A stretch of DNA of 64,000 bases from the NCBI GenBank assembly GCA_037974665.1, contig CM075773.1, positions 45,772,080-45,836,079 on the forward strand, read 5' to 3'. Each line of letters opens with the position of its first letter. Within the stretch, counting starts at the first letter, position 1. The position numbers and the translations under genes are program-made. This DNA is from Ehretia macrophylla (taxonomy: Eukaryota; Streptophyta; Magnoliopsida; Boraginales; Ehretiaceae). This document shows positions 15,425-57,953 of the stretch, piece by piece. The notes beneath the pieces were generated by a model. It made no database searches and had not been told where the DNA came from. It saw only the letters and a list, made by a program, of their open reading frames with translations.

Positions 15425-16045
15425 ATGGCGGAAACAAGAACAAACCCTTTCGTTCACTAGCTTGCTAGAGAACACTTGTATCGCCAGTCCAATGCCATGT
15501 ATATGATGATAATGAACTGTCTTTCTTTGCAAGCCTATAATGTTTTGCCTACTCTCCTTACAATTCTTGCTTTCATTGTCCCCGTGCTACTCAACTTTTT
15601 GCAATTGAAATATCCAGCCAAGAATGAATCTCCCTTCGAGACCTACCCAACAACTATGTTCATCACCATAAGAAGTCTCCTCATATTTTGCTTGGTATGT
15701 TATGTTTTGTCGAGAATGTCATCGACGACCAATCCTTCCCATTGTGATGCCGAACTTGTTCAAAAAAGTATGGTCTTTTTTGGTACTCTTGGTATGGCAA
15801 GTATTTACTCTATTTTTCTCCTAGACTCAATCTGTCCCACTCTATATTTGCTCCCTATTTGCTTTTCAGCAGGTGACATTCTATATTCCAAATTTTGCTC
15901 ATCCTGGGGTGTTTTCTGGATAGCTATGGTTAACATCCTGCAGCAGCTACCCGTGCAACAAAGATTCAGAAGAGTACCCTTGATTCACCAAACTAGGGTT
16001 TTGCCACAGATTGATGCCTACCAACTAGATTCACTCCCTATGTAA
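15425..16045 (+). pseudogene. Membrane-protein family, copy 1 (early stop)
   Basis: The ATG at 15425 opens MAETRTNPFVH and is stopped by TAG at codon 12 (15458-15460). The same frame then runs unbroken to TAA at 16043-16045. If used, the next ATG (15497) would give a protein of about 182 residues. The body has three or four hydrophobic segments (about 15537-15610, 15656-15720, 15768-15830, 15837-15890) and a polar tail with VPLIHQTRVLP. It is 60-70% identical by eye to the copy at 31036-31651, where codon 12 is Gln. No known domain is recognised; an integral membrane protein of unknown function is inferred. The early stop suggests a pseudogene or a shortened variant. Confidence 0.65.
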
Positions 16046-26950: not shown

Positions 26951-27157
26951 TTGACATTTTCCATTTTCTTTCGTGTCGTCTTATTAATTGCTTTGTCGAA
27001 GAAATCTGGTCCAGGTCGCTTTGTCAAACATGCTTTCTTTGCCCAACCTAAAACATGGTTCCTCAATCTGAAACCTCTTCTAAACCTTTCCACTTAAGTG
27101 CACCATAGGTCAAAGAAAAAGATATGTGTTGATATAGACATCATCCTGCATGTAGCG

Positions 27158-27369
27158 TGTAACGACTTCACGTGTCCAGTTAGTTATAGCTGGAATTGAC
27201 TAATGCAATTGATATGTGAGGTGTTGAGCTTATAAAAGAAGAAGGAAGGCACATAACAAAGGAAGCAAACACTATCTTATTTCTATCTTGTTCTTCTTTC
27301 TTTTAATTCTCTGTAATTTTCCTTTCTTTTATGTCTTTCTATTCTTGCTCAAAATACTAGTTCGTTACA
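27158..27369 (+). repeat. 5' LTR of the chimeric element
   Basis: TGTAACGACTTC to TTCGTTACA. Contains a TATA-like CTTATAAAAG (about 27230) followed by pyrimidine-rich sequence. It could still initiate transcription through the captured fragments. Confidence 0.88.
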
Positions 27370-27394
27370 TTGGTGCTTTCATTGAGAGTCGAGC

Positions 27395-27760
27395 ATGGCG
27401 GAAGGAATGAGCGTCGTTGGTAATGGTGATTTTTGCCTATACTATCGCTATCAACAAGGTGATTATCAACAATATTACTAGCAACACTATTACCCCTATC
27501 AACACTACTACCCCTCTCACCAATACTACCCATATCAACAATACTATTACTATCACTAGCCACAAATTATACCACCATCTTTTGATTCACAGCACCCAAA
27601 AACTCCACACACTCAGTCGGCTCTAGACGAGATGTAGATCAGGTGGAAAGCTCTACAACTCAAGTACTGCCTGACCCAGTCTGTGACCCAAATCTAAGAC
27701 ACTGATGACACCGAATTTAATGAGGAAAGGTTGCGTAGCAGCGTGGCTGAATTGGAGAAG
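27395..27760 (+). pseudogene. Leader/gag-like start of the chimeric element
   Basis: ATG at 27395, 25 bases after the LTR, opens MAEGMSVVGNGD and then a Tyr/Gln-rich stretch (YQQGDYQQYY, stop at 27479-27481, then repeated YYPYQ and YYPSHQ units). The same frame later gives ERLRSSVAELEKD, which seems to begin the coiled coil that continues after a frameshift near 27760. Position and primer-site context suggest the remnant of a gag gene, but no capsid or zinc-knuckle motif is visible, so the gag identity is inference. Confidence 0.45.
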
Positions 27761-27762
27761 GA

Positions 27763-28083
27763 TTGAAGACTCAAACGACGATGGCGTGGGAGATTGATGA
27801 ACTTGTAGGCAAAAAAAACGAGAGGGAAAGGAGAATCGAGAGTTTGGTCGACGAAAGGAGCTTGGTGAAGAATGATTTGAGTGAGGCATTAAAGCGATTA
27901 GGCGAGCAGAAGTGTGAAATCGAGCAACTAGTTAATGAGAAGATTGAGTTGGCTGAGGGTATGGAAAGACAGGAAAATGTCATTATCGAGTTGCAGAAGA
28001 ATGTGTAGGAATTCAGAGATGATATTCAAGAATTGAAAAATTCTTGCAATGGTCAAACAGAGAGAATCAAGAACTTGGAAAAG
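27763..28083 (+). pseudogene. Captured coiled-coil protein fragment
   Basis: Highly charged heptad-like sequence with IDELV, RIESLVDER, KRLGEQKCEIEQLVNEKIE and VIIELQKN. It then crosses an in-frame TAG (28006-28008) into DIQELKN and [10 protein letters not shown]. The donor gene is not recognised; any long plant coiled-coil protein could be the source. It joins directly to a PPR-like piece ([20 protein letters not shown], about 28087-28146). Confidence 0.5.
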
Positions 28084-28086
28084 GCA

Positions 28087-28194
28087 CATGAGCTGTTTGA
28101 TAAAATGCCTAAAACGAGTTCCATTTCTTATACTTCTATGCTAATGGATTTGGCGAGTGAGTTGTTTGCGAAGATTATTTATACAAATGTTGTT
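28087..28194 (+). pseudogene. PPR-repeat scrap
   Basis: [18 protein letters not shown] has the pattern of the end of one pentatricopeptide repeat and the start of the next (LFDKMP, then a short linker and YTSM). It is followed by ASELFAKI before the MSH2 segment begins. Plant genomes hold hundreds of PPR genes, so the donor cannot be named. Confidence 0.55.
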
Positions 28195-28671
28195 CATGGA
28201 GTTTCAACTTGTATGCAAGAAATGCTGGAAATTGCTTCAATATTAAAAGGAGCTACAACCAAGTCATTGATAATAATTGATGAGTTGGACAAGGGAACAT
28301 CTACTTACGATGAATTTGGCTTAGCTTGGGCCATCTGTGAGCACATTGTTGGAGTGATTAGAGCGCCCACTCTGTTTGCAACTCATTCTCATGAGCTAAC
28401 AACATTAGCTCATAGAAACGGTGGTGATGGGCAAGCTTCAGGCAAAATTGGTGGTGTGACAAATTATCATGTTAGTCCACACATTGACTCATCAAGTCGC
28501 AAGCTAACTATGCTTTACAAGGTTGAACCAGGTGCTTATGACCAAAGTTTTGGGATTCATGCTGCAGAGTTTGTCAACTTTCCAGAAAGTGTTGTCACGC
28601 TTGCTAGAGAAAAAGCTGCTGAGTTGGAAGATTTCTCACCTAGTTCTGTTACACCAAATGATGACAAAAAG
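28195..28671 (+). pseudogene. Captured MSH2 ATPase C-terminal fragment
   Basis: About 159 codons from [19 protein letters not shown] to [11 protein letters not shown]2 is the mismatch-repair MutS homologue. This is the second half of its ABC-type ATPase: the M-Q-E-M region, the Walker B segment SLIIIDEL, the [16 protein letters not shown] segment, LFATHSHEL, then [19 protein letters not shown]. No P-loop is present, so it cannot bind ATP alone. The residues after the Walker B DEL are D-K, where MutS proteins normally carry G-R (28288-28293). No intron interrupts the fragment, although plant MSH2 genes are multi-exon, so a spliced transcript was probably the source. Confidence 0.9.
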
Positions 28672-28701
28672 GTCATATTTAAGCAGAAGAGGGTGTTTGT
28701 G

Positions 28702-28797
28702 GAAATGCCTGAGAGAGATGTTATTGCAACTAACGCGATAATTTCGATTTTGCGTAAATATGGGTACATTGAGGAGGTGAAGGAGTTGTTTGATAGT
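28702..28797 (+). pseudogene. Second PPR-repeat scrap
   Basis: [20 protein letters not shown] followed by [11 protein letters not shown] is a nearly complete pentatricopeptide unit (MP-E-R-D-V-I-x-x-N-A-I-I, then E-x-K-E-L-F-D). It sits between the MSH2 and alanyl-tRNA synthetase fragments in the same frame. Confidence 0.65.
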
Positions 28798-28821
28798 AGG
28801 ACTGAAAAAAGAGATTTATTG

Positions 28822-29646
28822 GTAGATGTTGAAGGTTTTAATGCCGCCATGAATGAAGCAAGAGAAAGATTAAGGAACACCCAGAATAAATGACCTGGTG
28901 GTGCTATCATTATGGATGCTGATACTACCACGACATTGCACAAGAAAATGATTCCTATAACAAATGATGGCTTCAAATTTACATGGTTTCAGGACCATGA
29001 AAGTGTGATAAGAGCTATGTACACGAGGAGTGAGTTCTTGCAAAGTACTGATTGTGGTGATGAAGTTAGAATTATCCTCGCAAGTACTAGTTTCTACGCT
29101 GAGCAAGGTGGTCAGATATATGATACTGGACTTCTTGAAGGCTCTTTCGAGTCATTTAATATTTGTAATATTCAAATTTTTAGAAGCTATATTCTTCATA
29201 TTGGTTCGTTTGATGGGGACAGTGGTGGATTTACTGTTGGTGATAAAGTGTTTGGTAAGGTTGACTATAACAGGGGTACGCTTATTGCTAACAACTATAC
29301 CTGCACTTACATGTTTAATTTTGCTCTCTGGGAAGTTCTTGGAAATCATGTTGACTAGAAAGGTTCTATTGTTCTCCCTGAGAAGTTGAGATTCAATTTT
29401 GCACACGGTAAGCCTGTGAATTCCGAGGAACTGAGAAGAATTGAATCCATTGTGAATGAGCAAATAAAAGCTGAATTGTATGTTTTTTCAAAGGAGGCAA
29501 CTTTGACTGATGCAAAGCGAATTAACAGTTTACGAGCCGTTTTCGGACAAGTCTATCCTGACCCAGTTAGGGTTGTCTCAATTGGTTGGAAAGTGGAGGA
29601 TCTCCTATCTGATCCAGATAATGAAGACTGGAAATCAATATCAGCG
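28822..29646 (+). pseudogene. Captured alanyl-tRNA synthetase fragment
   Basis: About 275 codons. It starts [20 protein letters not shown] and crosses TGA (28891-28893) into [11 protein letters not shown]. The editing-domain region follows ([15 protein letters not shown] and [19 protein letters not shown]), then TAG (29356-29358), and finally [20 protein letters not shown] and [20 protein letters not shown]. The gene charges tRNA-Ala in cytosol and organelles; this piece spans the central linker and N-terminal editing region. The catalytic class II core and the C-terminal part are missing. The editing HxxxH position reads NNYTCTY, so the zinc ligands are lost. No introns are visible. Confidence 0.88.
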
Positions 29647-29880
29647 AAGCATGAAGTTGGCACTGGTTCATTGGGAGTTGTCTTCCAGGTGAAGTGCTTG
29701 GAAACAAATAATGCTATTATTATAAAGAAGGTGCTGCAAGATAGGAGGTACAAGAGCAGAGAACTTCAAGTTGTGCAGTTACTTGCCCATCCTAATGTTG
29801 TGCAGATGAAACATTGCTTCTATTCTACTATGGAAAGGAATGAGGTCTACCTGAACCTTGTCCTAGAGTATGTATTTGAA
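29647..29880 (+). pseudogene. Captured GSK3/shaggy-like kinase fragment
   Basis: Begins [20 protein letters not shown]: the glycine-rich loop of a protein kinase, here G-T-G-S-L-G. It continues [20 protein letters not shown] and [17 protein letters not shown] to NLVLEYV. This is the N-lobe of a shaggy/GSK3-type kinase: the VAIK-like lysine, K-K-V-L-Q-D-x-R-Y-K-x-R-E-L, then the αC-β4 region. The catalytic loop and activation segment are absent. It joins in frame to the glycosyltransferase segment at about 29881. Confidence 0.9.
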
Positions 29881-30243
29881 GAAACGAAAGAACGAGGCCT
29901 AATTGCGAGATGGTACCCTCAAGGGGATGTCCTTAATCATCCATCGATTGCTTCATTTTTTATGCATTGTGGATGGAACTCCATGAATGAGATCTTGGCT
30001 AGTGGTGTGACAATGATATGTTGGCCATTTTTTGCTGATCAGCCGCTTAACTGCAGATGTGCATGAACCAAATGGGATATAGGATTGGAGATCAATAGCG
30101 ATGTCAATAGGGATGAAGTAGAGAAGCTTGTGCGGGACTTGATTGATGGAGATGAAGGAAGGTTTAAGGATACTATTGAGCAGGAAATTGTTGACTCGTA
30201 CTCGAGGCTGAACCTTGTCTTTCAAATAGGGGAGGTAATATAA
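29881..30243 (+). pseudogene. Captured UDP-glycosyltransferase C-terminal fragment
   Basis: After the kinase piece the frame gives a PSPG signature from about 29911: [43 protein letters not shown]. Past TGA (30064-30066) the family's C-terminal sequence follows (INSDVNRDEVEKLVRDL). The PSPG box binds the UDP-sugar in plant family 1 glycosyltransferases; the closest recalled relatives are of the UGT85 type. The frame ends with TAA at 30241-30243, in the third codon position of the 3' LTR start, so the purine tract is read as coding sequence. Confidence 0.88.
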
Positions 30244-30450
30244 CGACTTCACGTGTCCAATTAGTTATAACTGGAATTGGCTAATGCAATTGGTATGTGA
30301 GGTGTTGAGCTTATAAAAGGAGAAGGAAGGCACATAACAAAGGAAACAGACACTATCTTATTTCTATCTTGTTCTTATTTCTTTTAATTCTCTGTAATTT
30401 TCCTTTCTTTTATGTCTTTCTATTCTTGCTCAAAATACTAGTTCGTTAGA
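30239..30450 (+). repeat. 3' LTR of the chimeric element
   Basis: 212 bp, same length as the 5' LTR and alignable without gaps. Terminal bases have drifted (TATAACGA at the start, TTCGTTAGA at the end). Confidence 0.88.
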
Positions 30451-30501
30451 TAGGGCCAAATGATTTTCTTTATTTTTACAGAAATAAGCATGAAACAATG
30501 T

Positions 30502-30963: not shown

Positions 30964-31035
30964 CCAGCCTACGCGTTTCTTAATGTACTCTTAGCTCCCC
31001 TCATCCATATAGTTTCTTAAACAAGTACTTACCTT

Positions 31036-31651
31036 ATGGCAGAAACAAGAACGTTTTATGTTCACCAGCTTACTGGAGAACACTTGTATGGCCAGTCTAA
31101 TGTCATCTATATGATGATTATGAACTGTCTTTCTTTGCAAACGTACAGTATTCTGTCTACTCTCCTTACAATTTTTGCTTTCATTCTCCCCGAGCTGCTC
31201 AACTTTCTGCAATTGAAATACCTAGCCAAGACTGAATCTCCGTTCAAGACCCATCCAACAACTATGTTCATCTGCATAACAAGTCTCATCCTATTTTGCT
31301 TGGTATCTTATGTTTTGTCAAAAATGTCATCGACCAATCCCTCCCCACCTTATGCCAAATTTGTTCAAAAAGGTATAGTGTTTTTTGGAACTCTGGGAGT
31401 GGCTGCATTATACTCCATTCTTCTCCCAGACTCTTTTCGCGCCATTTTATATTCGCTTCCCATTTGCTTTTCAGCTGGTGACATTCTATACACCAAACTT
31501 TGCTCGTTTTGTGTTTTTTTTATGGAGAGTTGTAGTTAACATTCTACAGCAGCCACACGTGCAACAAACGTTCAGGAATGTACCCTTGATTCATCAAACT
31601 AGGGTTTTGCCACATATTGATGCGTATTCAGTTGATTTACTTCCTATGTAA
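31036..31651 (+). pseudogene. Membrane-protein family, copy 2 (C-terminal frameshift)
   Basis: The ATG at 31036 begins MAETRTFYVHQLTGEHLYGQ, and the first frame stops at 31537-31539 (167 codons). Homology to copy 1 continues in the +1 frame to TAA 31649-31651, with NILQQPHVQQTFRNVPLIHQ. The shift maps to a run of eight T (31514-31521), one base longer than expected from copy 1. Three or four hydrophobic segments (about 31140-31215, 31260-31325, 31373-31435, 31440-31500) predict an integral membrane protein of about 205 residues in the intact family. No known domain is recognised. It is the best preserved of five copies; if the T run is a read error, it could be a real gene. Confidence 0.7.
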
Positions 31652-40609: not shown

Positions 40610-41543
40610 TGTAACACCCCGAACCCAACCCCACGCTAAAGTCAGGCTCGGACCTGTCACTCGGACAGAGTCTCCTCTGTACCAAGAACTAAGCTATCAC
40701 CTGCGAATAGTCACTTATAACATTTGAACTATAAACATCAACTTATCTTCTAATATCTCTAAAGTCAAAATAAAATAACAAGGCCATCCGAGCCTTGGAG
40801 CAACAACAATCTTCTTAAGCACACAAGCATGCGAGATAAGTTGGTTTTGGCCATAAGTAGTTAGATACAATATAATTTTAAGTTCCATATGTAGGACAAC
40901 AAACACTCCAAGCATGCAAGAGAAAATAAAGTCTAGAATCCATTATTACAATCTAACATCTTTCTCTAACATTCAAGACTACAACTACTAAACATATACA
41001 CAAGACCCCAAGGTCTCAAAATACAATATTTAACATGAACTCCACGTAAGTTGCACATAAGATCCACCTTAGCACACAAAGTCACGAATTCTGTTCTACG
41101 TGAACTTCTTCTTCTTCTTCTACTTCTAACAGGTGGGGATTCACCTCAACTTCTCCTGAAACATATCAAATGATGAGTGAGCAACAAAGTTGCCCAGCGA
41201 GGGAGGTGATGCAACATACCAACGTGCAATATGATATGCAAACACAAGAAAACATATATAAGCCACGTAAACCAGCAAAATAACAAGCCAAGTAATTAAT
41301 CACTTTTAAAAGGATACGGTTCCACTTCCAAGTCTTCAATCGCGAGCCACAAACCACGAACTTCACGAACATGCCGGCAAACCCCAAACACCAACAATTG
41401 GGATACTCCAGATGTATCCCAATCCTACGACCCTTTCTCCCGAGGTAGGTCCATGCCCAACAGGTGAACCACACCTCTGGGGTAGTGGAGTATGCCTCAG
41501 CGAGAAAGGGAATAGACATCATGGTAGTCAAGGGAGCATAGCA
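40610..41543 (-). repeat. Element A 3' LTR, outer part
   Basis: Starts TGTAACACCCCGAACCC on the plus strand. It is interrupted at 41543 by element B and resumes at 51422. The frame at 41166-41531 is LTR sequence also present at 19425-19700 and 58538-58996, not a gene. Confidence 0.9.
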
Positions 41544-43977
41544 TGTGAAACCCCACTTTCTTGCTTATCTCGTTTTACGTGTTTTACCTCGTTTTGCGTG
41601 CATATAACCTGTTTATGTGCTATAGGACCTAGAAAGTTATAATTTTGATTTCAATACTTCTAATACGTGCTAAATGTGCATTCATGAAATTTTCATCAAA
41701 ATCGGAGTCAGAAATTTTATCGTCGATTTTCAGTGAATAGTGTTTTCGAAACACGTCCGCTATAATTTTGAAACTGGTCTTTTTAACCCTTCTAGACCTA
41801 GTCCACGGACTTTAATAGACCTGTGTTTGATGAAAACGGTTTTAAAATCGGCTTAAGAATTTATTAGGGTTTTTACACCGACTTTTGCAAAAATCGAGTT
41901 TTAAGCCGACTCGGGTGGAATTCTTTAAATGTAAAACTTCTTGTCACCTAAAAATAACTCACTTGAGATATCTTGGGGGTTGCATCATTAATTTTAACTT
42001 GGTGATCACTAAAATGCAATTAAAGTCATTAAAAATACAAAAAAATGCCTATTAAAATAACTTTGACTTTAATTAAATAGTTGACCATTTAAGCTTATGT
42101 CCTCAACACACACTCACACAACACAAAAACACCACCACACACACACACATTACCGAGAGGAAGAGGAGAGAAAAGAGAAGAGAAAAACTTAAGCTTTCAA
42201 TCCAATTTTTCAAAGAAAAACCTAGTTTTTGTCCGTGAAACTTCGCACCGACTTGGATTCTGCTTGTTGGGCACGCATTGCATGCATTCCTAGGCTTATA
42301 TCGTATCTAAGGTGAGAGAAAAATTCTAGATCTCAAAATGTCATTTTTGTGTTTTTGCGTATAAATGAAGATTGAACCGTTAGAATTGAAATCTGATGAT
42401 AGATTATTGCTCCTTGCATGCTAGGGATCATTATATACTAATACTACAAGTTTCTGTCGGATATAGCATAATTTTTATTTTCCGGGTATTTAATTTTGAT
42501 TAAAATGTTCAAAGTTGATTTAATTGAGTTGTGTTGCTCGAAATCGATTGCCGTCGATTTCTAAATACTTGATAATTACGTGTTAGCGCTGTTGTAATGC
42601 CGAATTTTCGATTACATTGTTTGTGTGGAAATCCGGAAAATCCAGCCATGACGTCATAGGGTTTTAGGGTTATCGGGCATGTTTTGGAGGTGTTATGGTG
42701 GATTTCCGAGAGGGCTAATGTAGTAGGTTGAATGGGTGAGTGATAGGAACTGATTTGGCAATGTTTGGATTAGTAGATTGTAAGTTATGAATTTTAGAAG
42801 TTAGGTTGTCATTCTTTAATTTCTTGAACGATGCCTTAGATGGTTGGGTAGTGTTCGAGTGATGAATGGTGAGTTGTTGTTGAGTAATTTAGAGTTTAAT
42901 TATGAATATTATGCATGTCCGGTTAGATGGCCTACTTTGTCATCTAACTACGTTGTTTGATGTTTAATTTTATATTGATGTTATATTGATGTTATTGATT
43001 GATTATTATTGAATGCGGGAATCGGGCACTCTTGTTGCTGATCTCCCAATTGATTGATCGATTTATGCTTGCATGATGATTGATGAAAATGGAGCCTTGG
43101 TATGTGTGTGCCACCTCTCGGGCAGCGTCGGGCTGTCGGGTTGAAACCGGCATGACTGCCATAGGCTACCCCCAGCTCGCATGACGGAGATGTCATGGAG
43201 GGAAGGGGATAGTGAGGTACCTCGGGTGCGTGAGTAATGGGGAGTTATAAGAAGAACGGTTGAGATCGTGATGGCGTTTGGAGCTACACCAAATAGAGTA
43301 TCCTTATTGAATGGTCATATAGTTATGTGATGATAGCTTTATTTATGTTATTATTGTTGTTGTGTGTTTACTTGCTCAAAGGACTAAATCCAAGGAGCGT
43401 AGTGAATACAGTCGAGATCTATCGGATCCTCACTGGGCTTATGTATATAAGCTCACTCTCTATTAATGCATGTTTCAGGTGTACTTTCACAAGATTACGG
43501 GTACGTGCCTCCTGAAGAGGAGAATGTGGAAAATGTGCCTTTTGTGGATGAGTCATATGTTCCCGAATCTTATCTATGACTTTATGTTGTTAAATGTCTT
43601 GTATATTAGTTTAATAGACTTTATATGCTTTACGGTTCTTAATGTAATAGATATTGAAAAGATGTTGAACCAAATGATGTTAACTTAGCGGTTTCCTTTT
43701 GTCTATGGTTAAATTGTAGTTGTGTCTCAACTTACTTTTGAAATGTATGATAAAGTTGAGGTATTGTATGTCATGTTGGAACGGAGGCGTATAACGAGGA
43801 TGTTTTATTGTATAATATGGTTGTGTTGTATGTTGTTGTTTGTATTGAGGAATTACTGGATGTATGATGTTTAATGAGGTTGGTTTAGAACCTCGGAAAT
43901 CTGTTTACTGTCGTTATGCCGCCGAAATTCCGTTGCGTCCTGACTGATCGTAGGTGGGGTCGAGTTGGGGCGTGACA
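41544..43977 (+). repeat. Element B 5' LTR
   Basis: 2,434 bp. Frames at 42981-43196, 43327-43515 and 43470-43688 recur at the same place in the 3' LTR and are not genes. Primer site follows after a 7-base spacer. Confidence 0.93.
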
Positions 43978-43984
43978 GTTTAAG

Positions 43985-43996
43985 TGGTATCAGAGC
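43985..43996 (+). other. Element B primer-binding site (tRNA-Met)
   Basis: TGGTATCAGAGC, the standard plant initiator tRNA-Met primer site, 8 bases after the LTR end. Confidence 0.9.
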
Positions 43997-44247
43997 TCAT
44001 GTTAGTTGTTAGCCGGGGTATTCTCGGAATGTGGGTAATGGTCTTAGCATGAAATATGTATGAAAGGAAAGAAAAATGAAATATGTATTGGTATGATTAA
44101 TTGATTAAGTGATTATGTGATTTAAGTGCTTATGTGATTATGTGATCAATTTGATTATGTGTTTTATATGAGTTTGTTATTTATGTGGTAATAGTTGTTT
44201 ATAACCTGTCTACGTGCTATAACTGTGCTAACTCTTTGATTAGTAGA

Positions 44248-45822
44248 ATGGCCGGTCGACCGAGAACCAGAGGTAGGCCTGAGTTGACTGATGAGACTCC
44301 GAGTAATGTGGCACCGGGCCGTGACGGGGGTGATGACCGATTTGGAGCCGCTATGGAGCGGATTGCAGAGTTAGTGGCTAGTCAGGCACAGTTATTAGCA
44401 GGGCAGGCTGCCCAGAATCAGGCTATGCAGGCTCAGCTTCTGAATATTCAGGGTGGTAACCACGGGCGTGGTACCCTGAAGGACTTTTTAGGATATCACC
44501 CACCGAGATTTCAGGGGGAGCCGGATGATAGGAAGTGAGAGGTATGGATTAGCAAGTTGGAGAAGATTTATGATCCACTTGGCTATACTGATGAGCAGAA
44601 AGTCTCTTTTGCCGTGTATTTGTTAGATGACGAGGCAGAGGAGTGGTGGCGCACGGTAAGGACTAGTTGGGCGGCACAGGGTATTCCTTATATTTGGGGT
44701 ACCTTTCTGATGGCTTTCCGGGCAAAGTATGTCCCGAGGATTTGCAGGGAACGGAGAGAGGCCGAGTTTCTAGCCTTGGTCCAGGGAGATGCTACAGTGG
44801 CTCAATATGAGGCCACATTTACTCGATTGTCCCGGTATGCACCGGAGTATGTGGCAGATGAGGAGCGGAGGACTCGCAGGTTTATGTTGGGGTTGCGGCC
44901 CGAGATTCAGGATGTGATGGCTCTGAATCGTTATGATATTTTCACTGAGGCTTTTGATGCAGCTTCTAGATTGGAGAAGAGGAAAGGGGATCAGATTGTC
45001 TCCAGTCAGCCTAGTAAGAGGCCGTATCAGCCGCCGGGCCAGCAGGTTTTATATAGGCCTCCAGTACAACAGGTTGTCTACAGGCCACCTGCCCAGCAGG
45101 GTTCTTTTAGGCCACAGAGTCAGCAGAGTTATTATCGGCCTCAGTTTCAGCAGAGGCCATATCAGGTTCAGACTCAGTTTAGGCCAGCCCAGTCTCAGGG
45201 TCAGTACAGGCCTAGTGTGGTGAGACCTCAGCAGCAGGCTGTATCAGCTGCTTCTTCAGCTTCTGGTTATTCTAGGGGCAGTGCTAGTGCCACATCATCG
45301 CAGTGTAATTACTGCAAGCGCTCAGGGCATGTAGAGTCCGACTGCAGGGTAAAGGCAGGGACATGTTTGGGTTGTGGTAGCATCGATCATAGGGTGAGGG
45401 ATTGCCCTAAGTATGCGAGGACTGAGGGTCGGGCAGCGACTCAGGGTTATCAGGGTAGGCCTACGGGCAGTGTACCACAGCAGCAGCGGGTTCAGGCTCG
45501 GGCTTATGCAGTTGACTTAGAGGAGATGCCTGAGGAGACTGCAGTTGTGGAAGGTAACTTTCTTATACTTGATCAACTTGTTAAAGTGTTGATTGATTCT
45601 GGTGCTACGCATTCTTTCATTACTCCTGCTTGTGTACAACGTGTTAAATTGCAACCTGAAAGATTGCCTTATGTGGTTGAAATTAGTACCTCTTTGACTG
45701 ATAAGTATGTTACTGGCTTAGTATGTAAGGATTGTATAATACATGTTAAGGGGCATAATTTTCCTTCGGACCTTATTTTATTTCCTATCCGGGGGTATGA
45801 TGTTATCTTGGGTATGGATTAG
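44248..45822 (+). pseudogene. Element B gag and protease region
   Basis: The ATG at 44248 (MAGRPRTRGRPEL) is chosen because it opens the conserved basic gag N-terminus; an earlier in-frame ATG (44185) adds unrelated residues. TGA at 44536-44538 breaks the frame 97 codons in; the same frame then continues. Gag core (EEWWRTVR, FLALVQGDATVAQYEATFTR) is followed by a Gln/Pro/Tyr-rich linker and two CCHC zinc knuckles, CNYCKRSGHVESDC (about 45304) and CLGCGSIDHRVRDC (about 45364). The aspartic protease follows, with LIDSGATHSF (Asp codon at 45595). TAG at 45820-45822 ends this part. Gag packages the RNA; the protease cleaves the polyprotein. Confidence 0.92.
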
Positions 45823-45843
45823 CTTTCTAAGTATGATGCCCAG

Positions 45844-48800
45844 TTGATCTGTAGACCCAAGCTAGTTCAGTTTCGTTTGCCAGATCAGCAAGTAGTTGAG
45901 CTAGCGGGTAACCGGGGTGTTAAGACGAGTTTTGTTATCTCAGCAACTAAAGTCGTTAAGTTGGTGAGTAAAGGGTGTTCGGGTTATCTAGCTTATTTGA
46001 TCAACAAGCCATCTGTTAGGCTACAACTAGAAGAAGTCCCTATTATCCGGGAATATCCTAATGTATTTCCCGAGGAGTTGCCAGGATTGCCGCCAGAGAG
46101 GGATATCGAGTTTGTGATTAATCTTGTTCCCGGTACTCAACCTATTTCTAAATCGGCATACCGGATGGCACCAGCTGAGTTGAAGGAGTTGAAGACTCAG
46201 TTACAGGAGTTGTTGGAGAAAGGATTTATTCAGCAGAGTTCTTCACCTTGGGGAGCTCCTGTTTTGTTTGTGAAGAAGAAGGATGGTACCTTGAGATTGT
46301 GTATAGATTACCGTGGTTTGAATCAGGTGACTATCAAGAATAAATATCCTTTGCCACTGATTGATGAGTTGTTTGATCAACTTCAGGGAGCCAAAGTCTA
46401 CTCTAAGTTTGATTTGAGGCAGGGGTATTATCAGCTTCGGATTCGCTCAGACGATGTTCCGAAGTCTGCCTTCAGGACTCGGTACGGGCATTATGAGTTT
46501 GTTGTTATGCCCTTTGGTTTGACTAATGCACCGGCAGCATTCATGGATCTTATGCATCGAGTCTTTCAGCCGTACTTGGACCAGTTCGTGGTGATTTTTA
46601 TTGATGATATCTTGGTCTATTCTAAATCTGAATTGGAGCACGAGCAACATCTACGGCTTGTATTAGAGAAGTTGCAGGAGCATCAGTTGTTTGCCAAGTT
46701 CAGCAAATGTGAATTTTGGCTGCGACGGATTTCTTTTCTTGGCCATGTTATTACACAGAGTGGTATTTCTGTAGATCCCACTAAGATTGAATCGGTGATG
46801 TCTTGGAAGCGGCCAGAGAGTGTTACTGATGTCCGTAGTTTTCTTGGCTTGGCGGGTTATTACCGTAGGTTTGTCAAGGACTTCTCAAAGATTGCGGGGC
46901 CACTATCTAAGTTGACTCAGAAACGGACTATCTTTAATTGGGACGATAAGTGTGAGAGTGGATTTCAGGAGTTGAAAAAGAGGTTAACTACCGCTCCAGT
47001 ACTTGCTCTACCAGAGGGGACCGATAATATGGTCATTTACAGTGATGCATCCAAGGAGGGCTTGGGATGTGTTCTTATGCAGGATGGCCGAGTTATTGCC
47101 TATGCTTCCAGGAAGTTGAAGCCTTATGAGGTGAATTATCCGACTCATGATCTTGAGTTGGCAGCAGTTGTCTTTGCACTCAAGAAGTGGCGTCATTACC
47201 TGTGGGGCAGTAAGTTCGAGATTTTCACTGATCATAAGAGTCTTAAGTATTTATTCTCACAGAAGGAGTTGAATATGCGCCAGCGGAGGTGGATGGAGCT
47301 TCTTGGAGATTATAACTATTCTATCAATTATCTGCCTGGTAAGGCAAATGTTGTGGCAGATGCTCTCAGCCGGAAGGCTAGTATTTCTTGTTTGGCTGTC
47401 AAGAAGTGGGAGGTTCTTGAGGAGTTTAGTTATTGGAGACCAGAGTTCACTCAGGTTGGGGTGATGTGTTCACATCTCCGTATTCAGCCTTTATTGTTGT
47501 CTCAGATCAGGGAAGCTCAGCAGCTTGATGTTAACCTTCAGAAGATCAAGGATCAGATCACGGATGATCAGTCTGACTTTAAAGTGCATGAGGATGGTAT
47601 TCTTCGGTTTCGGAACAGGGTTTGTGTTCCCGATGAACCGGGCTTGAGACGAGGTATTCTGGAGGAAGCTCATAATTCTAAATATATTATTCATCCTGGT
47701 GGAACCAAGATGTATGGGGATTTGAAAAAGCATTACTGGTGGAACAACATGAAGAGGGAGGTTGATCAGTTTGTGTCTAGATGTTTGACTTGTCAGAGAG
47801 TGAAAGCCGAGCATCAACGACCAGCAGGTTTGCTTCAGCCGTTGGCTATACCAGAGTGGAAATGGGAGCATATTACGATGGACTTCGTCACTGGTTTGCC
47901 TAGATCACCGAGGGGTAATGATGCAGTTTGGGTTGTCGTGGATCGTTTGACGAAGACAGCTCATTTTATCTCGATGAGGTTAGGAGATGAGGTTACAAAG
48001 CTGACGGATCTTTATCTGGATCAGATTGTTAGACTTCACGGTATTCCATCTAGTATTGTCTCTGATCGAGATCCTCGATTTACTTCTCGTTTGTGGGAGA
48101 AACTTCAGGAGACTTTGGGTACTCAGTTGAACTTCAGTACAGCGTATCATCCACAGACCGACGGTCAGTCTGAGCGGACTATTCAGATTCTGGAAGATAT
48201 GCTTAGGGCTTGTGTTCTGGACTTTGGGAAGAACTGGGAGAAACATCTACCACTTGCCGAGTTTGCCTATAACAATAGTTATCAAGCTACTATTGGGATG
48301 GCACCTTTTGCAGCTCTTTACGGTCGTAAGTGCCGTTCACCTTTATATTGGGACGAGGTAGGAGAGATGAAGACTATTGATCCGACTATCATGCCAGAAC
48401 TTCTTGAGAAGATCGAGAATGTTCAGTTGATCAGGCAGAGAATGCTTACAGCGCAGAGTAGATTCAAGAGTTATGCTGATAAGCGTCGTCGAGACTTGGA
48501 GTTTGCAGTTGGAGATCGGGTTTTCTTGAGATTGTCTCCTCGAAAGGGGTTTGTTCGTTATGGTAAAGGTGGTAAGCTGAGTCCGAGATTTGTTGGGCCG
48601 TTTGAGATTACTGGCAGGGTTGGTAAGTTGGCATATCGGTTGGCTCTACCGGAAAACTTCTCTAATGTCCACGATGTGTTTCACGTGTCTAATTTGCGGA
48701 AATACAATCCGGATCCTTCTCATATTCTTGAGCCAGAGCCGTTACAGCTTCGTGAGAATTTGACTTATGACGAGCGTCCGATTCGTATTCTAGATCAGAT

Positions 48801-49071
48801 GGACCGAGAGTTGAGGTCGAAGAGGATTCCGATGGTTAAGGTGTTGTGGAAGCATCACGGCATTGAGGAAGCTACGTGGGAGAGACGAGATCAGATGCAG
48901 CAGCAATACCCAGATCTTTTCCGTACATCAAGTAAGAATTTCGAGGACGAAATTTCTATAAGGGGGGGAGAATGTGAAACCCCACTTTCTTGCTTATCTC
49001 GTTTTACGTGTTTTACCTCGTTTTGCGTGCATATAACCTGTTTATGTGCTATAGGACCTAGAAAGTTATAA
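45844..49071 (+). pseudogene. Element B reverse transcriptase, RNase H, integrase, chromodomain
   Basis: 1,075 codons without a stop, same frame as gag. Numbering from 45844: reverse transcriptase about 130-310 with F-I-D-D at 252-255; RNase H about 395-510 (Asp401, Glu438, Asp463, Asp506); integrase zinc site His610, His617, Cys647, Cys650; integrase core Asp680, Asp741, Glu777; GPF motif 918-920; chromodomain about 955-1030 ([16 protein letters not shown]). The terminal chromodomain and long LTRs place it in the chromoviruses, Tekay/Del-like. The frame runs 33 codons into the 3' LTR. All catalytic residues look intact, but the two upstream stops lie between it and the gag start, hence the pseudogene label. 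Confidence 0.94.
48960..48972 (+). other. Element B polypurine tract
   Basis: AAGGGGGGGAGAA ending at the first base of the 3' LTR; it primes plus-strand DNA synthesis in LTR elements. Confidence 0.9.
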
Positions 49072-51416
49072 TTTTGATTTCAATACTTCTAATACGTGCT
49101 AAATGTGCATTCATGAAATTTTCATCAAAATCGGAGTCAGAAATTTTATCGTCGATTTTCAGTGAATAGTGTTTTCGAAACACGTCCGCTATAATTTTGA
49201 AACTGGTCTTTTTAACCCTTCTAGACCTAGTCCACGGACTTTAATAGACCTGTGTTTGATGAAAACGGTTTTAAAATCGGCTTAAGAATTTATTAGGGTT
49301 TTTACACCGACTTTTGCAAAAATCGAGTTTTAAGCCGACTCGGGTGGAATTCTTTGAATGTAAAACTTCTTGTCACCTAAAAATAACTCACTTGAGATAT
49401 CTTGGGGGTTGCATCATTAATTTTAACTTGGTGATCACTAAAATGCAATTAAAGTCATTAAAAATACAAAAAATGCCTATTAAAATAACTTTGACTTTAA
49501 TTAAATAGTTGACCATTTAAGCTTATGTCCTCAACACACACTCACACAACACAAAAACACCACCACACACACACACATTGCCGAGAGGAAGAGGAGAGAA
49601 AAGAGAAGAGAAAAACTTAAGCTTTCAATCCAATTTTTCAAAGAAAAACCTAGTTTTTGTCCGTGAAACTTCGCACCGACTTGGATTCTGCTTGTTGGGC
49701 ACGCATTGCACGCATTCCTAGGCTTATATCGCATCTAAGGTGAGAGAAAAATTCTAGATCTCAAAATGTCATTTTTGTGTTTTTGCGTATAAATGAAGAT
49801 TGAACCGTTAGAATTGAAATCTGATGATAGATTATTGCTCCTTGCATGCTAGGGATCATTATATACTAATACTACAAGTTTCTGTCGGATATAGCATAAT
49901 TTTTATTTTTCGGGTATTTAATTTTGATTAAAATGTTCAAAGTTGATTTAATTGAGTTGTGTTGCTCGAAATCGATTGCCGTCGATTTCTAAATACTTGA
50001 TAATTACGTGTTAGCGCTGTTGTAATGCCGAATTTTCGATTACATTGTTTGTGTGGAAATCCGGAAAATCCAGCCATGACGTCATAGGGTTTTAGGGTTA
50101 TCGGGCATGTTTTGGAGGTGTTATGGTGGATTTCCGAGAGGGCTAATGTAGTAGGTTGAATGGGTGAGTGATAGGAACTGATTTGGCAATGTTTGGATTA
50201 GTAGATTGTAAGTTATGAATTTTAGAAGTTAGGTTGTCATTCTTTAATTTCTTGAACGATGCCTTAGATGGTTGGGTAGTGTTCGAGTGATGAATGGTGA
50301 GTTGTTGTTGAGTAATTTAGAGTTTAATTATGAATATTATGCATGTCCGGTTAGATGGCCTACTTTGTCATCTAACTACGTTGTTTGATGTTTAATTTTA
50401 TATTGATGTTATATTGATGTTATATTGATGTTATTGATTGATTATTATTGAATGCGGGAATCGGGCACTCTTGTTGCTGATCTCCCAATTGATTGATCGA
50501 TTTATGCTTGCATGATGATTGATGAAAATGGAGCCTTTGTATGTGTGTGCCACCTCTCGGGCAGCGTCGGGCTGTCGGGTTGAAACCGGCATGACTGCCA
50601 TAGGCTACCCCCAGCTCGCATGACGGAGATGTCATGGAGGGAAGGGGATAGTGAGGTACCTCGGGTGCGTGAGTAATGGGGAGTTATAAGAAGAACGGTT
50701 GAGATCGTGATGGCGTTTGGAGCTACACCAAATAGAGTATCCTTATTGAATGGTCATATAGTTATGTGATGATAGCTTTATTTATGTTATTATTGTTGTT
50801 GTGTGTTTACTTGCTCAAAGGACTAAATCCAAGGAGCGTAGTGAATACAGTCGAGATCTATCGGATCCTCACTGGGCTTATGTATATAAGCTCACTCTCT
50901 ATTAATGCATGTTTCAGGTGTACTTTCACAAGATTACGGGTACGTGCCTCCTGAAGAGGAGAATGTGGAAAATGTGCCTTTTGTGGATGAGTCATATGTT
51001 CCCGAATCTTATCTATGACTTTATGTTGTTAAATGTCTTGTATATTAGTTTAATAGACTTTATATGCTTTACGGTTCTTAATGTAATAGATATTGAAAAG
51101 ATGTTGAACCAAATGATGTTAACTTAGCGGTTTCCTTTTGTCTATGGTTAAATTGTAGTTGTGTCTCAACTTACTTTTGAAATGTATGATAAAGTTGAGG
51201 TATTGTATGTCATGTTGGAACGGAGGCGTATAACGAGGATGTTTTATTGTATAATATGGTTGTGTTGTATGTTGTTGTTTGTATTGAGGAATTACTGGAT
51301 GTATGATGTTTAATGAGGTTGGTTTAGAACCTCGGAAATCTGTTTACTGTCGTTATGCCGCCGAAATTCCGTTGCGTCCTGACTGATCGTAGGTGGGGTC
51401 GAGTTGGGGCGTGACA
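48973..51416 (+). repeat. Element B 3' LTR
   Basis: 2,444 bp. Ten bases longer than the 5' LTR: an additional TATATTGATGT unit near 50410 and one base fewer in an A run near 49470. Confidence 0.93.
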
Positions 51417-51421
51417 TAGCA

Positions 51422-52938
51422 AGCCCGACGCCACCCGTGTTTCTTGATGCTACCATGTCCGAAAAGGTTGCACAACCCCGAGACAAGTCACAAGCAATCA
51501 AGATATCAAATAACACGTAAGAGGGTCGACAAATTAGGCCGCCCTCACATATAATTACGATATAAGTTCACACAAGCACGAATATAGCATTAAGATTCCA
51601 AAAGAAGCAATCAATATAAATAATTCTCTCAAGCTACTCAAATAGCTTAAATATTCAATACAATACATGATAACTCAACTACAAGTTCCAAAAGCATCAA
51701 ATATAGCCAAAACTACTTTTTCCCCTTTCTTTAATCCAACTTTCTTTCTCCTATGCTCATCTCAAGGTTTCCAAACTATCTTCTAATCATCCTATAGTCC
51801 TAATTAAGCTAAAAGATACCCAATAAGATCATAAAAACTCAATTTATAAGATAAAGCTCGAAAAGGCTCCGACCGGGTTTTAACTATAACTATACTAACC
51901 GAACCCCATTTTCGCGAAACGAAAGCACCAAATATGCTTCTTTAGCTCAAGGATACCCGAATCAATGCCCAAACTTGCCCGGATCGCTCAACGGGAAAAG
52001 TCCCATTTCTAAAGTCAGCTATTTATGCAGTTAAGCTCGGTTTTGAGTGATTCAACCTCACGTGGCTTTTCAACTAACTTCACTAGGGTCTAGAGCATCT
52101 AATTGAAGCCTTAATTCAAGATAATTAGCAATTTTATTCAAAACCCTAAAAAACGTGCACTATTCATCCCTCTTTATTCAATATCAAATTCCAACCATAA
52201 ACATTGTTATTAAGTATCAAAATTAACTCTATAGCATCTATTAAGCATATGATAAGCATGTATAACAAGTTTTAGAGCTACAATCAACAAATAAAAGAAA
52301 TTCAACAATATGCATAAACTTTAACTTTAAAAAAATTAAGCTCCCTCACATAAACAAGCTTAGTAGAGGCAAGAACAAGCTTGAGCTAGGTTGATAACAC
52401 TTGTAGAAGCCTTAGGGAGCATCCAAGATCAAGCTTTGAAGATGACAAAATCTCCTTTTTGCTCCTAGAGGTGGTCGGCCATGGTGGAGGACATGGAGGT
52501 CATTTTTTCTTTTGTTTTGATGACAAGCTTGTGTTATTGTTTTAATTTCATGAGTTGGTTTTATTATATGTGGTGCATGACTAATAATCTAAGCTAATTA
52601 GTCCCAAAAACTTGATCAACTAAGGCTAAATGTGATTTCAAATGTTTTTAGTTGCAACTAGCACTATTCTTATGTAACACTATTCAAAAGACATGAAATC
52701 TATTTTCTAAACGCACGCTCCTAAGCTCGAAAGCCTAAAACGAGAAGTTCTCGGTTCCTTTTAAATGTCATATGACCTAGGAAAAAATATAAAATTGAAC
52801 TTTTAAAACAGTCGAAAATAGTATGAATAGTAACCTCTAATAAAAACAATTAAGCAAAAAAGATGATGCACGTAGAAATGCGCACATAGATATGCAACGG
52901 TTATAAATAAATTTATGGTAGGATTCTCGGGTGTCACA
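51422..52938 (-). repeat. Element A 3' LTR, inner part
   Basis: Resumes CAAGCCCGACGCC after element B and ends CTCGGGTGTCACA. The continuous version is in the 5' LTR at about 58860 and in the solo LTR at about 19625. Confidence 0.9.
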
Positions 52939-52953
52939 CCTTCTCCCCCTTAA
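52939..52953 (-). other. Element A polypurine tract
   Basis: Minus strand reads TTTAAGGGGGAGAAGG directly before TGTGACACCC of the 3' LTR. Confidence 0.85.
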
Positions 52954-54527
52954 ACTAATTGCGTCCTGCAATTCTTACATGATTCAACAAAGAGCTTCGG
53001 ATACTTCTATCTGATTTGATCTTCTCGCTCCCAAGTGGCATCCTCAACCCCATGATGATCCCAAAGAACTTTTACCATAGGAATACTTTTAGTTTGAAGT
53101 TCCTGAATCTTTCAGTCAACCACTCGAATAGGTTTATCAACATATGCTAAAGACTCATCAATCTCCAACGGTTCCGGCTCAATAATATGCGACGGATCAG
53201 GATTATATTTCCTCAACAGTTAGACATGAAAAACATCATGAATCCGGCCCAAACTCGGAGATAATGCCAATCGGTAAGCTAAATCCCCAACCTTCTCAGT
53301 AATTTCAAATGGTCCCACATATCTAGGGCTAAGTTTACCTCCTTTTCCGTGTTGAATCAAACCTTTGAGCGGAGAGACTTTCAAGAATACACGGTTACCC
53401 TTTGAAAATACTAAGTCCCGTCGACGTCTATCAGCATAATTCTTCTGTAGACTCTGAGCTGTAAGCATCATTTTCTTTATAAGTTTCACATTATCCACCA
53501 TTTTGATCATCTCAGGAAGAATAGCGGGATCAACTGTTTTCATCTCACCTACCTCATCCCAATACAACGGAGACCTACATTTCCGCCCGTAAAGTGCTTC
53601 GTAGGGTGCCATGCCAATAGTAGCCTGATAACTGTTATTATAAGCAAACTCTGCTAAAGGTAGGTATTTCTCCCAATTCTTGCCAAAATCCAGAACACAA
53701 GCTCTCAACATGTCTTCCAGTATCCTGATAGTCCTCTCTGACTGGCCATCCGTCTGTGGGTGATATGCAGTACTAAAACTCAAATTAGTCCCCAAAGCCT
53801 TTTGTAGTTTCTGCCAGAACTGTGATGTAAACCTGAGATTCCTGTCTGGCACTATCTGAGATGGAACTTCATGTAGTCTCACAATATTTTCAACATATAG
53901 CTCGGCCAATTTATCGAGAGAATCTGTTTTCTTTGTAGCAATAAAATATGAACTCTTTGTCAACCTGTCTACTACAACCCACACAGAATCATTACCTCGT
54001 GGTGATCTAGGCAAATCCGACACAAGGTCCATAGTAACCTGATCCTATTTCCACACCGGAATATCCAATGGCTGCAACAATCCTGCTAGCCTCTGATGTT
54101 CTGCCTTAACTTTCTGACAAGTCAAACACTTAGCTACATAATCAGCTATCTCTCTCTTCATGTTGTTCCACCAGAAATTCTATTTTAAATCTATGTACAT
54201 TTTAGTGCTTCCAGGACGAATTGTATACTTAGAACTATGAGCCTCAACAAGAATCTCATCTTTCACAATTGAACCACTAGGAATGCAAATTCTATTCCTA
54301 TACCTGAGAAGTCTATCATTATGCAACTTGAAGTCGGACTCTCCCCGTTTTGATTTCTCTAAACGCTTCAATAACTGAGGATCTGGCTGTTGCGCTTCTC
54401 TGATTCTAGATAGCAATAGAGATTGGATTTGTAGGCTAGCAAATTGAATACCTGATCTAGAAGTCTCTGGTTTCCACAAACATAGCTCTTCCATAATTTT
54501 CCAATCCTTGATTATCAAACTAGCCAC
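52954..54527 (-). pseudogene. Element A integrase and chromodomain, broken
   Basis: Minus strand from 54527: the zinc-site part has HSSKYTIRPG (a His replaced) and is stopped at 54180. From 54032 the core reads MDLVSDLPRSP, VPDRNLRFTSQFW and [12 protein letters not shown], so the three acidic residues are still present. GPFEITEKVGDLAYRLAL follows, with a stop just after IHDVFHV (53220). Beyond it a chromodomain-like stretch ([17 protein letters not shown]) continues with further stops. About as similar to element B as expected of two Tekay lineages. Not functional. Confidence 0.88.
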
Positions 54528-54539
54528 AGAAGCTTTTCA

Positions 54540-54902
54540 CCTCAGTGCATCTACAACAGTATTAGCTTTTCCCGGCAAATAGCTAATGGTACAATTATAA
54601 TCATTTAACAATTCTAGCCAATACCTTTGCCTCATGTTCAAATCTTTTTGAGAAAACAAGTATTTTAAACTTTTATGGTCAGTAAATATTTCAAATTTAT
54701 TACCCCACAAATAATGATGTCATTTCTTCAAAGCAAAGACAACAGCTGCAAGCTCAAGATCATGTGTAGGATAATTGAGTTCATATGGTTTTAATTTCCT
54801 AGAGGCATAAGCTATCACTTTACCATTTTGCATAAGAACACAACCTAAGCCTTCTTTCGAAGCATCACTGTAAATCACCAAATTTTCAGTCCCTTCAGGC
54901 AA
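54540..54902 (-). pseudogene. Element A RNase H, broken
   Basis: Minus strand reads [37 protein letters not shown] and, after a stop, [14 protein letters not shown] and YLPGKAN. The RNase H acidic residues are visible. A stop follows the domain and a frame change precedes it at about 54905. Confidence 0.85.
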
Positions 54903-54930
54903 AGCAAGGATAGATGCAGTGGTAAAATCT

Positions 54931-55720
54931 CTATTTCAACTCCTGAAAACTGGCTTCACATTTATCATCCCAATTAAACACAGTTTTCTTCTGAGTTAAT
55001 GTAGTCAAAGGTCCTGCAATCTTTGAAAAATCTTTAACAAATCGCCTATAATAGCCCGTTAATCTCAAGAAACTATGGACTTCTGTGACAGTTTCAGGTC
55101 TTTTCCACGACATAACCACTTCAATTTTAGCAGGATCAACAGAGATTCCCTCATGTGAAATGATATGACCTAAAAAGGCAACCTGTTTTAACCAAAATTC
55201 GCATTTGCTAAATTTGGCAAACAATTTGTGTTCTTGCAAAGTCCTAAGCACAATTCTCAGATGTTCTTCATGCTCTGACTCAGATTTAGAATATACTAAT
55301 ATATCATCAATAAAAATCACAACAAACTGATCAAGATAAGGTCGAAATACTCTCTGCATCAAATCCATAAAAGCAGCTGGAGCATTTGTCAAACCAAATG
55401 GTAGAACAACAAACTCATAGTGGCCGTACCTGGTTCTAAATGCAGTCTTAGGTACATCCTCTTTCCAGATCCTTAACTGATAATAACCCTGCCTCATATC
55501 AAAATTTGAAAACACAACAGCACCCTATAGTTGATCAAACAACTCCTCAATTAAGGGCAAAGGATATTTATTTTTCACCGTCACCTGATTAGGACCTCGA
55601 TAATCAATGCACAAACGTAGAGTACGTCTTTTTTTTCACAAATAACACGGAAGCACCCCACGGTGACGAACTAGGCTGAATAAAACCTTTCTCAAGTAAA
55701 CCATGTAGCTGAATTTTCAA
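54931..55720 (-). pseudogene. Element A reverse transcriptase, broken
   Basis: Minus-strand frame 55515-54931 contains [47 protein letters not shown] (the F-I-D-D active site) and [18 protein letters not shown]. The N-terminal palm and fingers (55516-55720) are in other frames with stops. Truncated by stops at both ends. Confidence 0.88.
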
Positions 55721-55723
55721 TTC

Positions 55724-56365
55724 CTATAACTCAGGGGGAGACATTCTATACGGGGTTCTCGAGATAGGACTAGTTCCTGGCAACAAGTCAATCACAAACT
55801 CAATTTTCCTTTCAGGTGGTAATCCAGGCAACTCTTCAGGGAAAACCCCCGGAAACTCTTTTATAACAGGTACCTCATTCAATTTCAATTTATCTCCAGG
55901 CTGATTAATTAAAGAAGCTAAGTATGCATCATAACCTTTACTCAGCATTTTAGTAGCTTTAATGGAAGATATGATACGAGTCCCAGTAGATTTTCGACTC
56001 CCAGTTACTTTAATAACAGGTTGGTTAGGTACTTCTAAAGTTAAAACTTTCCTCCTACAGTCCAAACATGCATAATATCGCCCCAACCAATCCATCCCCA
56101 AGATAACTTCAAAGTCCCGAAATGGCATGATAATCAAATCAATAGGATACATGCGACCCTCAATGCAAATATTACAATCTTTACACACAGACTCCGTAAC
56201 AAATTTAGTACCCATAGGATTACCTACTTCAATCACATACGGTAGTTTATCAACTTTTAATGTAGCAGACTGTGCACATGCAGGAGTAATAAATGAATGT
56301 GTAGCCCCGATGTCAATCAAAACTACTACCGGCTGACTATTAATAAGAAAAGTACCTTCCACCAC
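55724..56365 (-). pseudogene. Element A protease region
   Basis: Minus-strand frame of 213 codons with VEGTFLINSQPVVVLIDIGA near its start, where the aspartic protease triad D-S/T-G should be. Here it is D-I-G, so the nucleophile-supporting residue is changed. It continues through VILGMDWLGRYYACLDCRRK and [20 protein letters not shown] towards the reverse transcriptase. Confidence 0.88.
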
Positions 56366-56399
56366 TACTGTCGTCTCTGGAAGCTCCTCTTGGTCGAGT

Positions 56400-57645: not shown

Positions 57646-57681
57646 TACAATGCTAGAAGAACATAATATTATAATAGGCAA

Positions 57682-57940: not shown

Positions 57941-57952
57941 GCTCTGATACCA
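57941..57952 (-). other. Element A primer-binding site (tRNA-Met)
   Basis: Complement is TGGTATCAGAGC. The adjacent LTR end is missing about 26 bases (see findings). Confidence 0.88.
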
Positions 57953-57953
57953 C

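Follow-up and report, generated by a model that had tools for sequence, protein, structure and literature searches.

A long terminal repeat element of Ehretia macrophylla with a chain of host coding fragments joined largely in one reading frame

How does a short retroelement come to hold parts of several unrelated host genes, joined end to end and in one reading frame? The question is raised by a locus in Ehretia macrophylla, within a window of 64,000 nucleotides (the whole stretch of DNA that was analysed, C10:45772080-45836079, where C denotes a contig and L a read locus). The genome searched covers 1.58 Gb in 20 contigs. At 27158-30450 of the window lies an element of 3,293 bp bounded by long terminal repeats (LTRs), the interior of which consists of seven fused fragments, all on the + strand: a coiled coil, a first PPR piece, MSH2, a second PPR piece, alanyl-tRNA synthetase (AlaRS), a GSK3-like kinase and UDP-glycosyltransferase (UGT), followed by a short tail of the element's own. 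The pieces trace to about six host genes. We put the probability at roughly 85% that the locus is one insertion of a non-autonomous, probably Ty3/gypsy-derived LTR element from a family of serial gene collectors, in which cargo would be gained by template switching and passed through an in-frame filter.

Spliced host sequence between two LTRs

The two 212-bp LTRs, noticed already in a first-pass annotation made from the sequence alone, differ at 10 positions (95.3% identical). The 8-bp inverted ends described there are present in the 5' LTR, and in the 3' LTR one base is altered at each end. The near-matching 5-bp flanks are TAGCG and TAGGG, and in all four other copies that were read at both ends TAGGG stands on both sides; the direct LTRs, short inverted ends and 5-bp duplication are those of an LTR retrotransposon, with one duplication mismatch in the window copy. 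The positions of a putative primer site after the 5' LTR and of a purine-rich tract before the 3' LTR could both be read in the sequence. A primer-site pattern scan with letters taken from the window gave no second copy and shows nothing more, and the primer stretch had no match among viral contigs, where records of the host genome may be absent. A domain scan of the interior found no pol domain (gypsy reverse transcriptase, RNase H or integrase), and judged by its sequence the window element is non-autonomous. TRIMs are very short LTR elements without coding capacity; they and other small non-autonomous LTR elements have short LTRs, lack gag-pol enzymes and occasionally transduce genes. The window element has the short LTRs and the lack of gag-pol enzymes in common with TRIMs, but at 3.3 kb and with a long coding interior it is not one of them. 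Its features are as follows.

27153-27157, no strand: left target-site duplication, TAGCG here and TAGGG in the four other copies
27158-27369, + strand: 5' LTR, 212 bp, containing the stretch TATAAAAG
27370-27388, + strand: putative primer-binding-site position, with a close likeness behind the 5' LTR of a gypsy nested in L019
27395-27756, + strand: leader, in which the long frame has its start codon; the window copy has several stops here; Tyr/Gln-rich in the four members counted
27757-28080, + strand: coiled-coil module, recurring at many loci; possible host source C3:32013694-32013992 (73%)
28082-28194, + strand: PPR module 1, with 23 further separate matches at 86-92%; right edge loose, as the query ended at 28195
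28193-28673, + strand: MSH2 fragment (ATPase domain), three exons joined; edges approximate (query 28191-28675)
28686-28807, + strand: PPR module 2; right edge at 28787-28822 depending on the match
28802-29650, + strand: AlaRS fragment, eight exon matches joined; the right edge is the query end
29644-29880, + strand: GSK3/shaggy kinase N-lobe fragment, one intron removed at a canonical GT-AG site
29876-30162, + strand: UGT fragment; the matched donor part is intronless
30142-30238, + strand: the element's own 3' tail, with a frame end like that of gypsy pol and the purine-rich tract; a 10-bp gap in the window copy only
30239-30450, + strand: 3' LTR, 212 bp; the long frame of copy L009 stops inside its first part
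30451-30455, no strand: right target-site duplication, TAGGG

The four host genes that the annotation had named were all recovered by domain matches: MutS_V in the MSH2 piece (E 4.9e-40), AlaRS (E 1.1e-19), the kinase (E 1e-9; best GSK3-named structure E 2.8e-21) and UDPGT (E 3.9e-15). The PPR and coiled-coil pieces it had mentioned are two and one in number, and together with these the fused pieces come to seven, on one strand as described and essentially in one frame. In the related locus L017 the coiled coil matches residues ~290-470, the mid-part of plant coiled-coil proteins of 617-656 amino acids; a protein search with residues 1-260 of the L017 frame gave six matches, all to the coiled coil (119-274) and none to the leader. 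No protein with two of the window's donor families together was present among the best 120 of 354 and the best 120 of 1083 matches.

The donor search in the same genome that had been suggested gave nearest genes for MSH2, AlaRS, GSK3 and UGT at 84-96% identity per exon, with exon-by-exon matches and no intron sequence. The nearest MSH2 gene is at C7:6293087-6296403 (- strand), where query positions 3-134, 128-333 and 330-483 match at 91, 95 and 95% (E 4.5e-86, 1.1e-61 and 2.5e-43), values that rule out chance similarity; about 1.9 and 0.9 kb lie between the three exons in the gene, and the element has no such gap. For AlaRS the nearest gene is C6:17608225-17611709 (+ strand), in eight separate matches of 84-96%, so that seven introns are absent; two further AlaRS genes on C20 match more poorly in most exons. 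The GSK3 piece is nearest to C13:55064934-55065122 (- strand) and its upstream exon (85 and 91%), and at nucleotide level the intron between them starts with GT and ends with AG and the element is joined exactly there. The nearest UGT gene (C13:31983947-31984233, - strand, 93%) has no intron in the matched part and is therefore silent on splicing. Thus ten donor introns are absent from the element (two of MSH2, seven of AlaRS, one of GSK3), the GSK3 one read base by base and the other nine inferred from separate exon matches. From the loss of these introns it follows, at the level of sequence, that the three donors that can be judged were captured from spliced host mRNAs, as the annotation had proposed.

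One reading frame across the joins

Beyond the features first observed, the reading frame is kept across the joins. Between about 27760 and 30239 all pieces share one frame, which is interrupted by stops at 28006, 28891, 29356 and 30064; these four and further stops in the leader now break the window copy. Over 947 codons from the leader on, there are 14 stops in this frame, versus 53 and 104 in the two remaining forward ones. Six joins of the window element (coiled coil/PPR1, PPR1/MSH2, MSH2/PPR2, PPR2/AlaRS, AlaRS/GSK3 and GSK3/UGT) lie inside stop-free stretches and in the same frame, for which the chance with random frames is one in 729. The outer joins are open in other copies (leader/coiled coil in L012, UGT/tail in L009); with these two the chance for eight joins would be one in 6,561, but the choice of the best of six copies inflates this figure.

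The same is seen at related loci. Two unrelated domains lie together in each of nine stop-free frames from five elements (two in the window element, three in L015, two in a locus on C7, one each in L017 and L018). In L015, 998 codons contain 3 stops in one frame versus 56 and 91 in the others, and the part of L020 beyond an insert contains 2 stops in 811 codons versus 50 and 98. Edges could be fixed for overlap at three joins, where the donor matches overlap by ~4-6 nt (PPR2/AlaRS), at least 7 nt (AlaRS/GSK3, where the query ended) and 5 nt (GSK3/UGT), which fits switching at microsimilarity.

Copies, relatives and shared modules

Five further copies of the mosaic lie on C10 at 44.65-48.02 Mb, 91.5-95.8% identical over the element, which with the window copy makes six over 3.4 Mb. 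The fragment order is the same in all six, and in copy L013 the 3' LTR is incomplete. The flanks match at 91.6-96.8%; on the left the likeness extends ~10 kb in two copies and ~3 kb in three, and on the right it covers ~5.5 to 10 kb of the window, interrupted by gaps in some copies. Because these flanks are shared, the C10 copies are, as far as sequence comparison tells, segmental duplicates of one insertion, and independent transposition of the six is ruled out. The common order, flanks and duplication likewise rule out that the fragments are separate later insertions, and the fragments form the single LTR-bounded unit that had been claimed. Identity between the two LTRs is 0.953 in the window copy, 0.967 in L009, 0.939 in L010, 0.904 in L011 and 0.881 in L012, while L013 offers only 110 comparable positions; at plant rates from the literature this corresponds to an age of millions of years, within a wide margin of error. 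For each of the four cargo stops of the window copy there is at least one other copy that lacks it. None of the six copies is open throughout, and stops and indels vary between them.

A search of the genome with the LTR, with 40 of 255 candidates scored, gave the sister copies with other cargo that had been anticipated: eight further LTR pairs, read at both ends, with different mixtures. Six of the eight have a perfect 5-bp duplication (L015, L017, L018, L019, L020 and L028, the edge being moved by one base for L015, L019 and L020), L016 matches at four of five bases, and L014 has none. A degenerate pattern of the leader start, with up to three mismatches, occurs at 72 places on 19 of the 20 contigs, and five of these matches belong to copies of the window mosaic; a control with the pattern reversed had no match. 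The cargo at the loci read is listed below.

L014: PPR, ribophorin II
L015: PPR, pyruvate kinase, myo-inositol oxygenase (MIOX), monodehydroascorbate reductase (MDAR), FtsH, GSK3
L016: neutral invertase
L017: coiled coil, PPR, nodulin-like N domain
L018: bromodomain and PPR around a copia-like element (recognised by eye)
L019: PRP39-like piece (below the Pfam cut-off), nested gypsy
L020: thioredoxin, PPR; L028 is 95% alike
L021 (not read at both ends): weak ribosomal S4e match, weak ATP-grasp match
L026 (not read at both ends): Argonaute, HSP70
L036 (not read at both ends): P450, kinase
C7:106.145-106.153 Mb (not read at both ends): pectate lyase, DEAD helicase, GSK3, MSH2, PPR, AlaRS, cyclophilin

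The C7 locus was read as two pieces (L042 and L044) with an unread stretch between them, and a leader match at the far end and an LTR match at the near end lead us to infer that it is one element. Loci L035 and L036 hold a much longer intronless GSK3 cDNA, with P450 ahead of it in L036, and L015 shares with their GSK3 piece its end and the tail behind it at 90%. The insert in L020 (L020:1750-4660) has a repeated internal unit and interrupts the 5' part.

Modules recur among these elements in other combinations. The C7 locus and the window element share MSH2-PPR2-AlaRS unbroken over 795 bp at 94.5%; beyond this block GSK3 stands before MSH2 at C7 and after AlaRS in the window element, and the C7 neighbours are the pectate lyase, DEAD helicase and cyclophilin pieces. 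The 3' part of UGT is found at seven other loci, always from query base 118 or 122, and in four of the seven it continues into the tail. At 15 loci (matches within 7 kb grouped) the coiled coil is accompanied by PPR1, and one of these loci, on C17, also has MSH2. Another PPR piece of 72-75 bp is common to L015, L016, L019, L020, L023-L025 and L028. This recurrence favours stepwise growth, with switching among element RNAs as well as onto host mRNAs, and since single modules and blocks recur with other partners the window mosaic was probably built in more than one reverse-transcription event. The annotation had suggested repeated template switching onto spliced mRNAs; the capture of spliced mRNAs is supported, with switching as the probable step, and its completion in a single event is improbable.

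Other features of the window lie beside the mosaic. A young gypsy occupies 41540-51416, with 2.4-kb direct repeats (41540-43977 and 48969-51416, 99.2% identical) and adjoining gag-protease and pol frames at 44539-49068 (reverse transcriptase, RNase H, integrase and a chromodomain match below the cut-off). It apparently lies within one of the LTRs of an older gypsy that runs on the opposite strand at 40631-60376 and whose repeat pairs (40631-41538/57950-58854 and 51421-52938/58859-60376) are 95-96% identical. The open frames 15461-16042 and 31021-31536, the latter just past the mosaic element, are related (DNA 76-87% over ~460 bp) and have no Pfam match.

Formation of the chains and comparison with known systems

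We propose that enzymes for reverse transcription are supplied in trans and that during copying the reverse transcriptase would jump at short matches from element RNA to a co-packaged spliced host mRNA or the RNA of a sister element, and back. In the course of several cycles each lineage would build up a different series of host coding fragments, with the start and the pol-like end of the element conserved on either side. Products with frame-breaking joins would mostly be lost, so that the survivors are largely in-frame exon shuffling. The most likely cause of such a filter may be decay of element RNAs in which a stop comes early, or their exclusion from particles if packaging is tied to translation. 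In L009 the frame ends just inside the 3' LTR, so that the 3' untranslated part would be short behind an open frame and long behind a broken one. The gypsy nested in L019 has a different LTR, but its primer-site stretch is very like that of the window element and its pol end is of the same type, which makes a gypsy of this kind a plausible supplier in trans. Segmental duplications of larger extent then multiplied the window copy.

Several observations weigh against this reading. A pol gene in an element with the window-type LTR was not seen in the 20 regions read, and the autonomous partner sought by the annotation was thus not found there. The best frame has 22-46 stops in the five sister copies against 14 in the window copy; there are 11 stops in L017 (35 and 81 in the other frames), 17 in L016 (59 and 104) and 22 in L028 (53 and 73). 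The frame changes in the window copy at leader/coiled coil (open in L012) and at the tail (the 10-bp gap), in L016 after the leader, in L017 before the tail, in L014 (inside ribophorin by our reading), twice in L028 (where the sister L020 is open) and in L036 between P450 and kinase (open in the sister L035). The 40 scanned frames were picked for being open, which biases toward in-frame joins, and of the 18 domain matches on which the nine frames rest, 3 fall short of the Pfam cut-offs (PPR in the window element, PPR in L017, Pyr_redox in L015); a second scan backed the L015 Pyr_redox and the window PPR, no single window PPR stretch passing alone. The short donor overlaps may partly be chance extension. 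Finally, the ratio of nonsynonymous to synonymous divergence (dN/dS) of the shared block against the C7 locus is 1.37 for the window copy (324 codons, dS 0.040, dN 0.055) and 0.80-1.17 for the other five copies; it is about neutral, with no selection on the protein visible at sequence level, and speaks against strong lasting selection on the protein.

This last point bears on the possibility that the chimeric protein serves the element, for example as a condensate-forming, Tyr/Gln-rich and Gag-like N-terminus with interchangeable bodies, which would account for the in-frame joins. One leader type is common to many members, Tyr and Gln make up 18 to 31 of the first 70 leader residues in L015, L016, L017 and L028 (the L016 leader reaching a similar composition from different DNA), and the frame spans from the leader to the 3' LTR. 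However, dN/dS is near 1 in the block shared by two loci, although most of the divergence may postdate insertion, the bodies are unrelated between members, and L018 has a different leader; we consider this explanation unlikely, at about one chance in five. A single burst, in which one reverse-transcription event joined every fragment by repeated switching, would suit the one LTR-bounded unit and the spliced state of all three testable donors. Yet the MSH2-PPR2-AlaRS block on C7, the coiled coil-PPR1 pair at 15 loci and the UGT 3' part at seven stand among other neighbours, and in its strict form the burst would need the loci with subsets of the window joins to be derived from the window type; it is a quite improbable origin.

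Still less probable is a domesticated chimeric host gene of retroelement origin, as claimed for Bs1: the order is kept in six copies and pairwise dN/dS among them is 0.50-0.90, but with no copy open throughout and with stops and indels that differ from copy to copy a functional host gene is rejected. Pack-MULEs and Helitrons carry genomic fragments that keep their introns and have inverted-repeat or Helitron ends. Capture by DNA transposons (Pack-MULE, Helitron, CACTA) is common in plants, according to PMC13317346, and such elements or break repair might have brought the fragments, which were enclosed later. The ten missing introns, the LTR ends, the 5-bp duplications and the sense orientation of all fragments speak against this, and the intron loss of three donors contradicts DNA-transposon capture, leaving it barely credible.

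The nearest described case appears to be maize Bs1, an LTR retroelement with fragments of three donor genes in a hybrid reading frame, as described in PMC13317346, PMC5408686 and PMC7264820. Several host cDNA fragments are fused in one sense frame between LTRs in both, whereas Bs1 has three donors and the present case has seven fused pieces and a genome-wide family of many chains with shared modules. The family would thus be like Bs1 on a larger, family-wide scale, and no descent from Bs1 is claimed. Capture of genes by LTR elements is known in large numbers from rice and sorghum (PMC3726574, PMC7264820), likewise with host gene sequence within LTR elements, but the accessible text of PMC3726574 does not name multi-donor in-frame chains or module exchange. 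PMC5408686 and PMC13317346 describe how host mRNA enters particles by co-packaging and how reverse transcriptase switches templates at microsimilarities, which in theory it could do several times. In the account that PMC5408686 gives of LTR-mediated retroposition (Tan et al. 2016), however, the copy as a rule comprises only a restricted portion of a single parental mRNA. The co-packaged mRNA, short-match switches and intronless LTR-bounded product of that account are as proposed here, while in the present family switching looks repeated, cumulative and mostly frame-keeping. Among the titles and abstract openings listed from open-licence literature no family of multi-donor, in-frame, module-sharing chains was described.

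It is perhaps an even bet that the family acts as a modular exon shuffler, in which single host fragments and blocks of them pass as interchangeable cassettes among many LTR elements, and a check at the RNA level that the frame is open mainly retains in-frame fusions. If true, the family would steadily produce novel open reading frames of several domains, driven by a single promoter type and in many members sharing an N-terminus. The origins of multi-domain proteins are usually inferred from old events; here the products, the elements with partly shared joins and the four nearest donors stand in one genome, so that steps of RNA-based exon shuffling can be read directly. If the in-frame bias is due to a filter by RNA decay or translation, this would show how, under a selfish element, open chimeric frames can become the common outcome instead of one in three at each join.

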